The notes below the pieces were generated by a model. That model was not told the DNA's origin and ran no database searches. It saw nothing but the letters and a program-made list of their open reading frames with translations. From the NCBI GenBank assembly GCA_030024085.1, contig JASEJE010000013.1:1-33824 (forward strand): a DNA stretch of 33,824 bases. The letters are read 5' to 3'. This stretch comes from Bacillota bacterium. GTDB taxonomy: Bacteria > Bacillota > SHA-98 > UBA4971. How positions within the stretch are numbered: position 1 is the first letter of the stretch; each line of letters begins with the position of its first letter. Positions 7,372 through 23,979 of the stretch are shown here, piece after piece. Position numbers and translations under genes: made by a program.

Positions 7372-7651
7372 CCCATACAGGTTTCATTCGTTTGACCCAA
7401 TTCTTTCGGCTTGACCGCTTCGGGTTAGCTTGGCTGACGACATCAATGACGCCTGACCAGATGCGGATCACAAGCTCGCGGGAGTCTTCATGAGTATCAG
7501 AGGCTCCCGGCGCCTACGCTTCGTGACGCGCCGAGACTGGAGCGCCGTCCCCGGAGCGCAGCACCAGCAATCATTGGACGAGCTATAAGTCGACTCGGGT
7601 TCCACAGCGGCACCCAGGTGCAGCAGAAGAATGCATCGCAGGAGGAATCAC
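7372..7651. other. Intergenic gap with a decayed repeat fragment
   Basis: There is no gene here. Around 7533-7575 the bases GAGCGCCGTCCCCGGAGCGC followed by AGCACCAGCAATC resemble the right core arm of the CTAAGT repeat family (GCGCGCCGTCCCCGGAGTGC then AACACCGGCAACC), without a recognisable left arm. I read it as a worn fragment, with modest certainty. The GGAGG at 7641-7645 is the ribosome binding site of the next gene. Confidence 0.4.
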
Positions 7652-9820: not shown

Positions 9821-10113
9821 TACGAAGCGGGACGGGTGACGCGCATCACGGGTTCTTCCTCAACCGTTCCGCACGTCATCGTTGAGGGCTATCCGGTGAT
9901 GTACATCACTGGTGCGTGCCTTATCGATTCCCTGTATCACGCGTCCAAGAGCAAGGATGATGCACATCACGCGTCAAGCTCTTCCCGTTCCGTACATCAC
10001 GGGTCCCTCGGGGAGGTGCACGCCTGGGTGTCCCCGAGACCGGAAGTCGCGCTGCCGAACAAGCCCGCCAGGCCCATGAGGCTGGATGTCATTTCGTATC
10101 TGACAGAGTAGCA
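9820..10113. mobile_element. Second, left-truncated copy of the 30.5-bp periodic element
   Basis: The sequence matches positions about 1890-2178 of the first element in order. Core words start at 9843, 9873, 9903, 9934, 9964 and 9994 (steps 30, 30, 31, 30, 30; the 9934 copy reads GTATCA). The same tail of about 115 bp follows and ends ATCTGACAGAGTAGCA. The left inverted end is missing. The right end abuts the stop codon (10114-10116) of the minus-strand UroD-like gene. Confidence 0.65.
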
Positions 10114-13009: not shown

Positions 13010-13229
13010 CTAAGTAGACCGCCACAAACTCGCGCTGCTCTTGAGCCCGCAAGCCCTGGCCAGGGTTGCCGGTTCGTCCTCCCGGGACGGCGCGTGCGGT
13101 GAGGTGCGTTCGAATCTCGCGCTCAAGGCTAGCCAGATCCCAGGCACCCCGCCCTGGCAAGCACCGGCGACCCCAACACCGTCAGGCGAAGTGGCGCAAG
13201 CTCATGGCGCCATACCGCCCCACACCTAG
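13010..13229 (-). repeat. CTAAGT-family repeat, 220-bp inverted copy overlapping a stop codon
   Basis: Read on the minus strand it starts CTAGGTGTGG, has ATGGCGCCAT, then a core with GTCGCCGGTGCTTGC and ACCGGCAACCC, and ends GTGGCGGTCTACTTAG. It is therefore the same family as 14395-14605, more diverged. Its first bases supply the TAG stop codon (13226-13228) of the sugar-binding protein gene. Confidence 0.75.
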
Positions 13230-14209
13230 AACACCGACTCCGGCGTGTAGTAGTCCTTCGCGTTCTCTCTCGTGACGAGTTCAGCGCTGAGGATGACCTT
13301 CGACGGAAGCTTGTTCTGGTAGAACCCGTTCAGCTTCTGGTCACGAAGCGCCATCACCGCCATGCTTACGCCGGTGGCTATCATGGACGGCGGATAGGTG
13401 ACGTCGGCGCGCACCAGCGGGTCGCCGTCGATTATCATCTTGATGATGTCCTTGGAACCCGCGCCCCCCAGGAAGAGCTTGATGTCCTTGCGGCCCGACT
13501 CCTTGTACGCCTGAAGAACGCCCTTCAGCACGTCGTCGTCCTGCGCCCAGACGCCATCGATCTCTTTATACTTCTGGAGGTAGTTCTCCATTATCTCGAG
13601 GCCCTTCTGCGTCGACCAGTACGCCGGCTGGGAGTCGAGGATCTCGATGCCGGGGTACTCCTTCATGACGGCCTTGAACGCCTCGACGCGCTCGGTGTTG
13701 ATGACGCAGGGGATTCCCTCGAGGACCACGATCTTGCCTTTCCCTTTTAGCTCCTTGGCCATCCATTCGCCCGCGACCCTTCCGAGACCAGGGTTGTCGC
13801 CGGCGACGTAGATGTTCTCAACGGGCTTCGTAAGACCCCTGTCGACTGAGACGATGAATATCCCTTTCTTGCTCGCCTTTTCCACAACAGGCGTGAGCGG
13901 CGCCGAGTCATGGGCGAGGATGACGAGTGCGTCTATGCCCTTGACCATCAGGTCCTCGACCTGGCCCACCTGCTGCTGGGCAGAGTCGGCCGTGACGAGG
14001 AAGAACGTGACGTCCTTGTCCTTCGCCTGCCAGTCGCTTATGGCCTTCTTGGCCCACCAGACGATGCCGCCCGTCCAACCGTGGTCCGCCGTGGGAATCG
14101 AGACGCCTACCCGGATCTTCTTGGGCGCCGCAATCGCGGAACCAAGCAGAACCGTTGCCGTCAGGCACAGCGTCAGGAGCAGGACCAGCCCAACTCTGAA
14201 CCTCTTCAT
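13226..14209 (-). CDS. ABC sugar transporter substrate-binding protein (RbsB/XylF type)
   Basis: An exported sugar-binding protein of about 327 residues. It has a positively charged start (MKRFR), a hydrophobic signal of about 20 residues and a probable signal-peptidase I site after AIAA; the single early Cys is not in a lipobox. The mature part begins KKIRVGVSIPTADHGWTGG. It shows the periplasmic-binding-protein type-1 pattern (VEDLMVKGIDALVILAHDS, VSVDRGL, AGDNPGLGRVAGEWMAKEL, VWAQDDDVLKGVLQAYKE) known from ribose, xylose and galactose binding proteins. GGAGGA lies 9 bp before ATG 14209; ATG 14215 would be too close. The permease and ATPase genes are upstream in the same operon. The stop codon is within a repeat terminus, so the extreme C-terminus may have been trimmed. 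Confidence 0.92.
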   Translation of the reverse strand: MKRFRVGLVLLLTLCLTATVLLGSAIAAPKKIRVGVSIPTADHGWTGGIVWWAKKAISDWQAKDKDVTFFLVTADSAQQQVGQVEDLMVKGIDALVILAHDSAPLTPVVEKASKKGIFIVSVDRGLTKPVENIYVAGDNPGLGRVAGEWMAKELKGKGKIVVLEGIPCVINTERVEAFKAVMKEYPGIEILDSQPAYWSTQKGLEIMENYLQKYKEIDGVWAQDDDVLKGVLQAYKESGRKDIKLFLGGAGSKDIIKMIIDGDPLVRADVTYPPSMIATGVSMAVMALRDQKLNGFYQNKLPSKVILSAELVTRENAKDYYTPESVF

Positions 14210-14394
14210 CACCATATCTCCTCCTTCAGCATTGCAGTGAGTTTCCGCTGTCTACCAGGTGCCAGACTTCCTCTACGCATAACCACACCAACGAACGCCT
14301 CGCGTAGCAATGCCTGGTGGCTCTCACCCCCAACCAGAATGCCAGCCTTCGCAGCCTTCGCATTCCTCGCATCCTTCGCGCCCCGCAACGCACC

Positions 14395-14605
14395 CTAAGT
14401 ATGGCGCCATAAGTTTTCGCCACTTTTCTTGAGGGTGCTAGGCTTGCCGGTGCTTGCACGACGGGGCGTCGAGAATTCGGCTGGCCCGTGCGCCAAATTC
14501 GAACGAGGCGCGCCGCGAGCGCGCCGTCCCCGGAGTGCAACACCGGCAACCCTGGAGAGCCCCTGCACGCTGAAAAGCAGCGCGGATTTCTGGCGATCTC
14601 CTTAG
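14395..14605 (+). repeat. CTAAGT-family repeat, 211-bp reference copy
   Basis: This copy begins CTAAGTATGGCGCCATAAG and ends TGGCGATCTCCTTAG. The core has GCTTGCCGGTGCTTGCAC paired with GTGCAACACCGGCAACC, GGGGCG with a CCCC arm, and an inner GGCGCGC/GCGCGCC hairpin. It sits in the 560-bp gap between the permease and binding-protein genes (14210-14769), where I see no gene; 14640-14765 is Pro/Arg-coding low-complexity sequence. Confidence 0.8.
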
Positions 14606-14769: not shown

Positions 14770-15747
14770 CTATCGCCGCTTGCCCTGGATGAGCACCGCG
14801 CCGATAATCACAAGCCCCTTGACGGTCCCCTGCAGGTAGGGAGACACGCCGAGCATGTTCAGCATGTTGTTGATTATCCCGAGGATGATCGCTCCAAACA
14901 CGGTCCCCGGGATCGTGCCGCTCCCGCCTGTCAGCGGAGTGCCGCCGATGATCACCGCTGCGATGGCGTCAAGCTCGAAGTTCAGCCCTGCGTTCGTGGA
15001 GCTTATGGAGTTGAGCCTCGATGAAAGCAGGACGGCTGACACCGCAACAGTCAGGCCCACGACAAGATATGAGGTGAACCTGATGACCTCGGTCTTTATT
15101 GCGGCGTACCTGGCCACCCTCTCGTTCGATCCGACGGCACATACGTACCGCCCGTACCGGGTGCGCGTCAGGACGATGTGGAAGACGACCGCAAGCCCCA
15201 GCATTATCCACACCGGGACGGGAATGCCGATGAGGTCGCCCATCCCGAGTTCGGGATACATCGAACTCGCCGAGCGGAATTCCCCGGCATTGCTGATATA
15301 CAGGGTCAGGGACCGAAATATGGCCATGGTGCCCAGCGTGGCAACGAACGGCGCGACCTTGCCCACGGTGATGATTAGCCCGTTGGCCGCCCCGCCCACA
15401 AGCCCAAGGAGCATCCCCACGACGATGGCAACGACGATCGCCCCGATCTCCCCGATCTCGCCGCCGAACTTGTTGAGGGTCAGGATGACGATGCCACCGA
15501 CGAGCGCGGTCATCGATCCCACGGAGAGGTCGATGCCGCCCGAGATGATCACGAACGTCATCCCCAGCGCGATGATCCCTGTGTACGAGACCTGCCGCAG
15601 TATGTTGAGGATGTTCTGCAGCTGCAAAAAGTATGGGCTCGCAATCGACGATATGATGAAGAGCAGGATGAGCGCATAGAGCGAGCCGAACCTCTCGTAG
15701 TCCAGCCTCTTCGGAACCATCTTCTTCGGAATTGCCCTGATGTTCAT
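14770..15747 (-). CDS. ABC sugar transporter permease (RbsC/XylH type)
   Basis: A 325-residue inner-membrane permease with about eight to ten hydrophobic helices. Family landmarks are the GIIALGMTFVIISGGIDLSVGSM segment after the second helix, the coupling-region stretch RTRYGRYVCAVGSNERVARYAAI, and the C-terminal AAVIIGGTPLTGGSGTIPGTV loop. These are characteristic of the BPD_transp_2 permeases for ribose, xylose or galactose. The ATG lies 1 bp after the TGA of the ATPase gene, so translation is probably coupled. Together with the double ATPase and the periplasmic protein it forms one importer. Confidence 0.95.
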   Translation of the reverse strand: MNIRAIPKKMVPKRLDYERFGSLYALILLFIISSIASPYFLQLQNILNILRQVSYTGIIALGMTFVIISGGIDLSVGSMTALVGGIVILTLNKFGGEIGEIGAIVVAIVVGMLLGLVGGAANGLIITVGKVAPFVATLGTMAIFRSLTLYISNAGEFRSASSMYPELGMGDLIGIPVPVWIMLGLAVVFHIVLTRTRYGRYVCAVGSNERVARYAAIKTEVIRFTSYLVVGLTVAVSAVLLSSRLNSISSTNAGLNFELDAIAAVIIGGTPLTGGSGTIPGTVFGAIILGIINNMLNMLGVSPYLQGTVKGLVIIGAVLIQGKRR

Positions 15748-22593: not shown

Positions 22594-22790
22594 CTATGGG
22601 TTCACAAGTTTGCGCGGGGCCTTCCGGTGGGTCCGGGGTTGCCATTGCCTGCACAACGGGGTGCCGAAACCTGCTCGCTCGTATGCGGACCAAATCCCGC
22701 CGAGGCGCTCCCTTCAGGGTGCCGACCCCGGAGCACAGCATCGGCAACCCGCAGGGAGATGGGAGTGACCTCTGACCTGCACCCTGGAGG
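22594..22790 (+). repeat. Degenerate CTAAGT-family repeat copy
   Basis: The copy begins CTATGGGTTCACAAGTTTGC. Its core GGTTGCCATTGCCTGCAC corresponds to GGTTGCCGGTGCTTGCAC of the other copies, and CCCCGGAGCACAGCATCGGC to the right arm. Clear divergence and loss of the right CTTAG end suggest an old copy. Confidence 0.6.
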
Positions 22791-23638: not shown

Positions 23639-23979
23639 CTAAGTATGGCGCGACGAGTTTGCGGCACTTCTCCTGACGCTGTTGAGGTTGCCGGTGCCTG
23701 CACGACGGGGCGCTCTCGATCTGGCAAGCCTGAATGCCAAATCTAGCGAGGCGCGCCGCAAGCGCGCCGTCCCCGGAGTGCAACACCGGCAACCTCTGGA
23801 AAAGTGGCAGCGATCTCTGAACCCACACTTAGGGCGGGGCGCCTGGAATTTGGCTGGCCTTGAGTGCCGAATTCGAACGAGGCGCACCGCAAGCACGCCG
23901 TCCCCGGAGAGCAACATCGGCAACCCTGGACGGGACTTGCGCGCTGAAAAGTAGCGTGAATTTGTGGCGATCTACTTAG
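23639..23979 (+). repeat. Composite of two CTAAGT-family copies
   Basis: A complete copy spans 23639-23832 (starts CTAAGTATGGCGC, ends CCCACACTTAG), with GGTTGCCGGTG/CACCGGCAACC and GGCGCGC/GCGCGCC stems. It is followed directly by a second core lacking a left arm (begins CGGGGCGCC at 23835). This second core runs through GAGGCGCACCGCAAGCACGC and ends GGCGATCTACTTAG at 23979. The two right arms are of different subtypes. The composite ends 33 bp before the phosphatase gene start. Confidence 0.75.

Follow-up and report, generated by a model that had tools for sequence, protein, structure and literature searches.

The window analysed here is a stretch of 33,824 nucleotides (G000:C4:1-33824) from the 3.1-Mb, 65-contig assembly of an uncultured member of the Bacillota, whose named relatives are unclassified Bacillota MAGs, UBA6811 and MAG-64. 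Between two predicted genes at 13226-14215 and 14770-15747, on the forward strand, lies an intergenic element of 211 bp (14395-14605), which the sequence, a BLAST search of its own genome and the gene calls mark as a full-length copy with ends of type A and a core of type I. The element is short and repeated, and it contains no transposase gene. It begins with CTAAGTATGGCGCCATAAG. Its 5' terminal arm (CTAAGTATGGCGCCATAAGTTTTCGCCACTT..., 14395-14440) is an inverted end of the IS630 type, and the inverted partner of this arm is the 3' arm at 14553-14605, which ends in ...GGCGATCTCCTTAG here and in ...CTACTTAG in most copies.

The arms enclose a structured core (14441-14552), which matches our covariance model with 111.7 bits and is predicted to form a three-way junction of an interrupted outer stem, P1, and two hairpins, P2 and P3. 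The blocks of P1 comprise 12, 4 and 4 pairs plus two variable pairs: its 5' side (14441-14466) consists of 14441-14452, TTGC at 14454-14457 and GGGG at 14463-14466, and its 3' side (14528-14552) of CCCC at 14528-14531, GCAA at 14537-14540, and 14541-14552. Pair counts and sequence place P3 at 14507-14525, with GGCGCGC (14507-14513) facing GCGCGCC (14519-14525), and P2 at 14473-14500, with GAATTCGGC (14473-14481) facing GCCAAATTC (14492-14500) and a single C-A mismatch in this copy. An earlier note, made from the letters alone, had described the outer stem, the GGGG/CCCC step and the GGCGCGC hairpin, and all three are present as claimed. It did not name the third arm, GAATTNGGC/GCCNAATTC, which is P2 and completes the three-way junction.

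The same note had proposed a dispersed CTAAGT...ACTTAG family, and that family is real. With up to three mismatches allowed, a single 24-mer from the core matched at 236 places in the own genome, and its reversed control at none. About 40 other scored places in the genome match 14395-14605 over nearly its whole length in BLAST, mostly with 84-97% identity, and the best full-length copies reach 97%. A profile search of 430 kb of sampled sequence found 61 copies and fragments; our copy statistics refer to these sampled stretches of the 3.1-Mb genome, and by extrapolation the genome-wide total is roughly 440 copies or fragments. Inverted CTAAGT...ACTTAG ends are found in nearly all full-length copies, and in type A they are imperfect.

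The window itself holds eight such places. All six given in the earlier note (326, 2235, 13010, 14395, 22594 and 23639) proved to be copies or derivatives, and 7523-7576 and 23833-23979 are additional. All but one lie on the forward strand, the exception being the minus-strand copy at 13010-13229. That at 326-375 is an ends-only derivative of 50 bp (CTAAGTGAGG...CATACTTAG), and the piece at 7523-7576, which the earlier note missed, is the 3' half of a core. The copy at 2235-2427 combines a type I core with type B ends (CTATGTATGGGTT... / ...CTGAACCCACACTTAG), and that at 22595-22750 is old and decayed. A mosaic at 23639-23832 joins a type A 5' arm and a type I core to a type B 3' arm (...CTGAACCCACACTTAG); abutting it, 23833-23979 is the 3' part of a second type A copy, probably a nested insertion into the CTAG of its neighbour's core, with the left half lost. 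The TTGCTAGGGCGGGG core variant in this pair (23639-23979) contains CTAG, so the family should be able to insert into itself.

Nearly all full-length copies read C-TAAGT...ACTTA-G. To find empty sites across the genus, we joined the flanks with CTAG replacing the element and tested 11 full sites. One of these (L117) reads GGGG-CTAG-GCT in the relative G002 and GGGG-CTAAGT...ACTTAG-TCT in G000, and at a second (L105) G002 has TTAG where G000 is filled. Another copy (L007) appears from its flanks to sit within a further copy, at a former CTAG. An empty CTAG set against a filled CTAA...TTAG is the pattern that TA duplication inside CTAG would be expected to leave, as for IS630. Placing AAGT...ACTT between CT and AG would yield an identical sequence, and the TA duplication thus rests on the analogy with IS630. 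ISY100, of the IS630 (Tc1/mariner) family, duplicates TA in vitro (PMC2170065), and a preference of IS630 for the TA in CTAG is given by the title of Tenzen and Ohtsubo 1991, cited in the same paper. Insertion at TA with TA duplication (PMC2170065) is what the element shares with IS630 and ISY100, but those are autonomous and the element here is without a transposase gene. As a separate observation, the orthologues of insertion site C11:84350 in G003 and G004 (L112 and L114, about 1620-1680) carry an unrelated insertion of approximately 48 bases when compared with the empty L105 site.

A CTAG target could also be served by a transposase of the IS5 group. MITEPsy1 of Pseudomonas syringae, an IS5-related MITE of 100 nt, inserts at CTAG or YTAA (PMC3189936) and in its use of CTAG resembles the element described here. 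However, MITEPsy1 duplicates all four bases, whereas the filled sites in our genome read CTAA...TTAG and not CTAG...CTAG, and the motif at the ends agrees with that of an IS630 element; we consider an IS5-type origin very unlikely.

The IS630 element in question comes from relatives in the same class. One of them, G014 (L094), encodes an apparently intact transposase of 280 amino acids with DDE_3 and HTH domains, which scores 187 bits against the NCBIfam IS630 family model NF033545. In another, G015, the IS spans L095:883-2025 and its transposase copy is split into two frames; its ends (CTAAGTTAGTG.../CTAAGTTAATG...) read CTAAGTTAGTGTCCAATTAAATTTGCCACTTTGCCAGG and CTAAGTTAATGCACAAAAGTTTACCGAACTT, with C and G outside. 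G001 and G004 have transposase relics with stops, and G005 and G016 have fragments. Even when CTAAGT is omitted from the scoring, the left IS ends of G015 and G014 match MITE ends of type E (from G013) and type B (from G000) with z of 6-7.5 against shuffles, and GCCACTTTACCAGG lies equally far from the tip in the left IS ends and in the type B and E MITE ends. Type C ends match the right IS end (p 0.003), and the matches of types A and D are weak, so that the likeness between MITE and IS ends is a partial one. Because the left IS ends match type B and E ends, an IS630-family IS of this kind likely was once, or still is, the helper of the MITE.

These comparisons also answer the earlier note's suggestion that the ends be set against resident transposases of the IS200/IS605 or IS630 kind. 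Its guess of an IS630-like partner was right, in that the terminal motif of an IS630-family IS from related genomes recurs at the element's ends; the enzyme, however, is found in class relatives and not in the genome at hand, as neither a DDE_3 (PF13358) transposase nor a match to the G014 transposase was detected in the G000 assembly. This may be a real absence, or it may reflect the poor assembly of repeats when a multi-copy IS is present in a short-read MAG. An element can be an IS630-type MITE without a functional transposase in the same genome, but it could not move there today; the lack of one in this incomplete assembly is thus a point against present-day movement, despite copies that are 97% alike. 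The note's other suggestion, a REP-like element served by an IS200/IS605 enzyme, fared worse. A REP- or BIME-like repeat moved as single-stranded DNA by a Y1 transposase (IS200/IS605, RAYT) would be in keeping with strong hairpins and with the dispersed, intergenic copies, but the Y1 domain PF01797 is absent from the carrier genomes G000, G001, G003-G005, G013 and G015, and true inverted-repeat ends and an empty CTAG site also speak against it. Since a Y1 transposase is lacking in the own genome and in most carriers, we reject this origin as extremely improbable. A resemblance of the ends to integron attC sites was likewise dropped, the order of GTT and AAC being reversed relative to attC.

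We therefore regard the element as very probably a non-autonomous MITE of the IS630 (Tc1/mariner) type, moved into CTAG by a transposase supplied in trans. The earlier note had listed a MITE among its readings, and the inverted ends, the empty CTAG site in a relative and the match of the ends to an IS630-family IS uphold it. In outline, an IS630-family transposase would recognise about 38 bp at each end, namely CTAAGT, a spacer, an AAATTT-like block and [G]CCACTTTNCCAGG, excise the element, and reinsert it at the TA of a CTAG with duplication of that TA; we infer both the mobilisation in trans and the cut-and-paste steps.

The position of the copies relative to genes, which were predicted with a purpose-made hexamer-based gene caller, is in keeping with such a target. 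None of the 61 sampled copies or fragments has more than half its length covered by a gene. Among the 25 full-length type A copies sampled, 18 are intergenic, seven lie exactly on a stop codon and none is genic, and the CTAG sites outside elements divide into 82 genic, 53 intergenic and 20 at stops. Genic copies are thus strongly depleted relative to the sites available (p 6e-8), which argues that insertions inside genes have been removed, and that those between genes or at stops would persist. The share of copies at stop codons is what a CTAG target predicts, with an odds ratio of 1.03 against CTAG sites. Read inwards, both ends begin C-TA-AGT, and the element, on entering a CTAG whose TAG is a stop codon, would therefore leave a TAA stop in place: C-TAG becomes C-TAA-GT, and the protein is unchanged. 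Two cases lie in the window. The TAA at 327-329, in the 326-375 derivative, is the stop codon of a gene predicted at 30-329, and the outer CTAG (13226-13229) of the 13010-13229 copy overlaps the stop codon of the minus-strand gene predicted at 13226-14215. BOX elements of Streptococcus pneumoniae also supply the stop codons of neighbouring genes, in 36 cases (PMC3049150). They share with our element the provision of a stop to adjoining genes, but are of other sequence and build; here the stop is made of the TA of CTAG and the first base of the element.

The core is the less ordinary part. The fold of the element is stable far beyond chance (z -4.35 as RNA, -4.29 as DNA), with predicted core energies of -51 to -85 kcal/mol. 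A covariance model built on 11 diverse cores and run over 0.62 Mb of loci gave 83 matches at E <= 1e-6. Across 82 distinct rows, 92.7% of pairing cells are paired, and double-sided changes occur in 20 of the 38 pairs. Double-changed cells number 116, compared with 25.7 in shuffled alignments and no more than 26 in slid structures. The covariance analysis that the earlier note had called for thus found covariation well above background, although fitting the alignment to the structure makes these counts somewhat too high, and related sequences exceed shuffles more easily, a point that the slid controls partly answer. Compensating changes, which that note had thought plausible, have good cases in the outer stem and the third arm, but its own example from the 13010 copy is weak. 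Between related genera, the outer stem has been rewritten on both sides: it reads GGTTGCCGGTG/CACCGGCAACC in the window genome, GGTGTCAGGTG/CACCTGACACC in G007 and GGAGGCCGATG/CATCGGCCTCC in G008.

Covariation of this kind could in part come from template switching within quasi-palindromes, and at the extreme it would be entirely a by-product, with the polymerase copying one arm onto the other and no selection on the fold. The element is a long quasi-palindrome, the ends of type C are nearly identical over about 50 bp, and paired changes are present in all stems, as that process would have it. It leaves unexplained, however, why the unpaired junction letters and the core length have been kept across two families of the class, and the core is often more conserved than the arms. 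As the whole explanation we think it unlikely.

We give a similarly low weight to the proposal that the core acts as RNA, as a transcribed and stable three-way junction (an sRNA, a protector of mRNA ends or an RNase III target) whose pairing is selected. The very stable predicted folds and the covariation would suit it, and transcripts of NEMIS elements have been proposed as RNase III targets (PMC2229807). Selection on one transcribed strand should leave G-U pairs in excess of A-C mismatches, and the outermost stem does show such an excess (36 to 15 cells). Over all pairs, however, the two are balanced (89 to 73 in type I, sign test p 0.16), and the orientation of copies relative to flanking genes is near even (21 to 17). 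A search of the window with the covariance models of Rfam 15 gave no match at E<=1, and searches of the relatives gave sub-threshold chance matches only. The mobile structured RNA of the earlier note thus gains no support over a DNA structure: covariation does not tell the two apart, and neither wobble pairs nor orientation to genes show a strand bias. Given the overall G-U/A-C balance and the 21 to 17 orientation, we lean towards a role of the core at the level of DNA rather than RNA.

The distribution of cores and ends bears on what that role might be. By BLAST, the element occurs in six of six members of the genus, six of seven members of the sister genus and two members of a second family in the class; a lone weak match in G047 (6e-4) was taken as chance. 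A model search of 199 genomes of the phylum, with strict filters and 19 candidates scored per genome, found matches only in the genus and in G013, and we take the element to be restricted to its class. Two types of core and no fewer than five types of end can be distinguished, and in many cases the ends have diverged more than the core. Types A and E have cores that are 85% alike and arms that are 56% alike (shuffled, 47%); types C and D have cores that are 90% alike and arms that are 44-54% alike. Conversely, the arms of types A and D are 66-72% alike and their core types differ. As most elements were found through their core, the sample favours conserved cores, but the cross-combinations are independent of that bias. 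The second core type is found in type C elements (G000:C22:37161-37041, 45251-45370 and 145902-146069), with different P2 and P3 sequences and near-perfect inverted ends of about 50 bp that run into the core stem.

One core type thus occurs with unrelated ends, and related ends occur with different core types. Among possible roles of the core we tentatively favour one in the DNA itself: by pairing with itself, as a single strand or a cruciform, the core may bring the ends close together and favour mobilisation, which would explain how the core was kept while the ends were swapped and diverged with changing transposases. The exchange of ends also prompts a broader and somewhat more doubtful reading, in which the core is a functional structured module, of DNA or RNA, that has spread between changing IS630-type ends. 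Such a module would act in cis, raising mobilisation or limiting harm, and selection at the level of the transposon would keep the three-way junction for longer than the ends that bind the transposase.

As an IS630-type MITE, the element is ordinary in kind. The family is apparently undescribed, as judged by a literature search that found no paper naming UBA6811 and none joining bacterial IS630 MITEs with covariation, subscription journals lying mostly outside its reach. RUP of S. pneumoniae, a repeat of 107 bp described as simple and with ends like those of IS630-Spn1 (PMC2229807, PMC3049150), is similarly a short, non-coding, many-copy repeat with TA ends, a target duplication and IS630-family-like ends. 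In contrast to RUP, our element has 211 bp, encloses a covarying three-way junction in its core, uses a CTAG site and belongs to another bacterial group. ERIC and Correia/NEMIS also share TA termini, a target duplication and transcripts predicted to be highly base-paired, and one review knew of no IS partner for them (PMC2229807). They differ in sequence and are described as long stem-loops, whereas here a covarying three-way junction is common to several end types.

The usual view of a bacterial MITE is of transposase-binding ends that enclose an expendable filling; here it is the filling that is conserved. A covarying structured core that outlasts the transposon ends, and persists through their exchange, is the unusual part: in two families of the class it shows compensating changes, and its ends meanwhile are replaced and recombined. 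Should the core aid transposition, it would constitute a testable structural cis-signal in a MITE of the Tc1/mariner type. The combination of a CTAG site with C-TA-AGT ends illustrates, in addition, how a repeat can hit stop codons and leave the protein unchanged.

The window also contains repeats of other kinds. A second dispersed repeat, at 1597-2080 and 9823-10012, forms arrays with a unit spacing of 61, 91 or 121 bases and is built on the palindrome GTGATGTACATCAC and CCGTTCCCTGCGTCACG; with up to one mismatch, this palindrome has 66 sites genome-wide, which are clustered, and none in the reversed control. At 980-1470, low-complexity repeats of the CACCCACGCCCAC kind lie between predicted genes.
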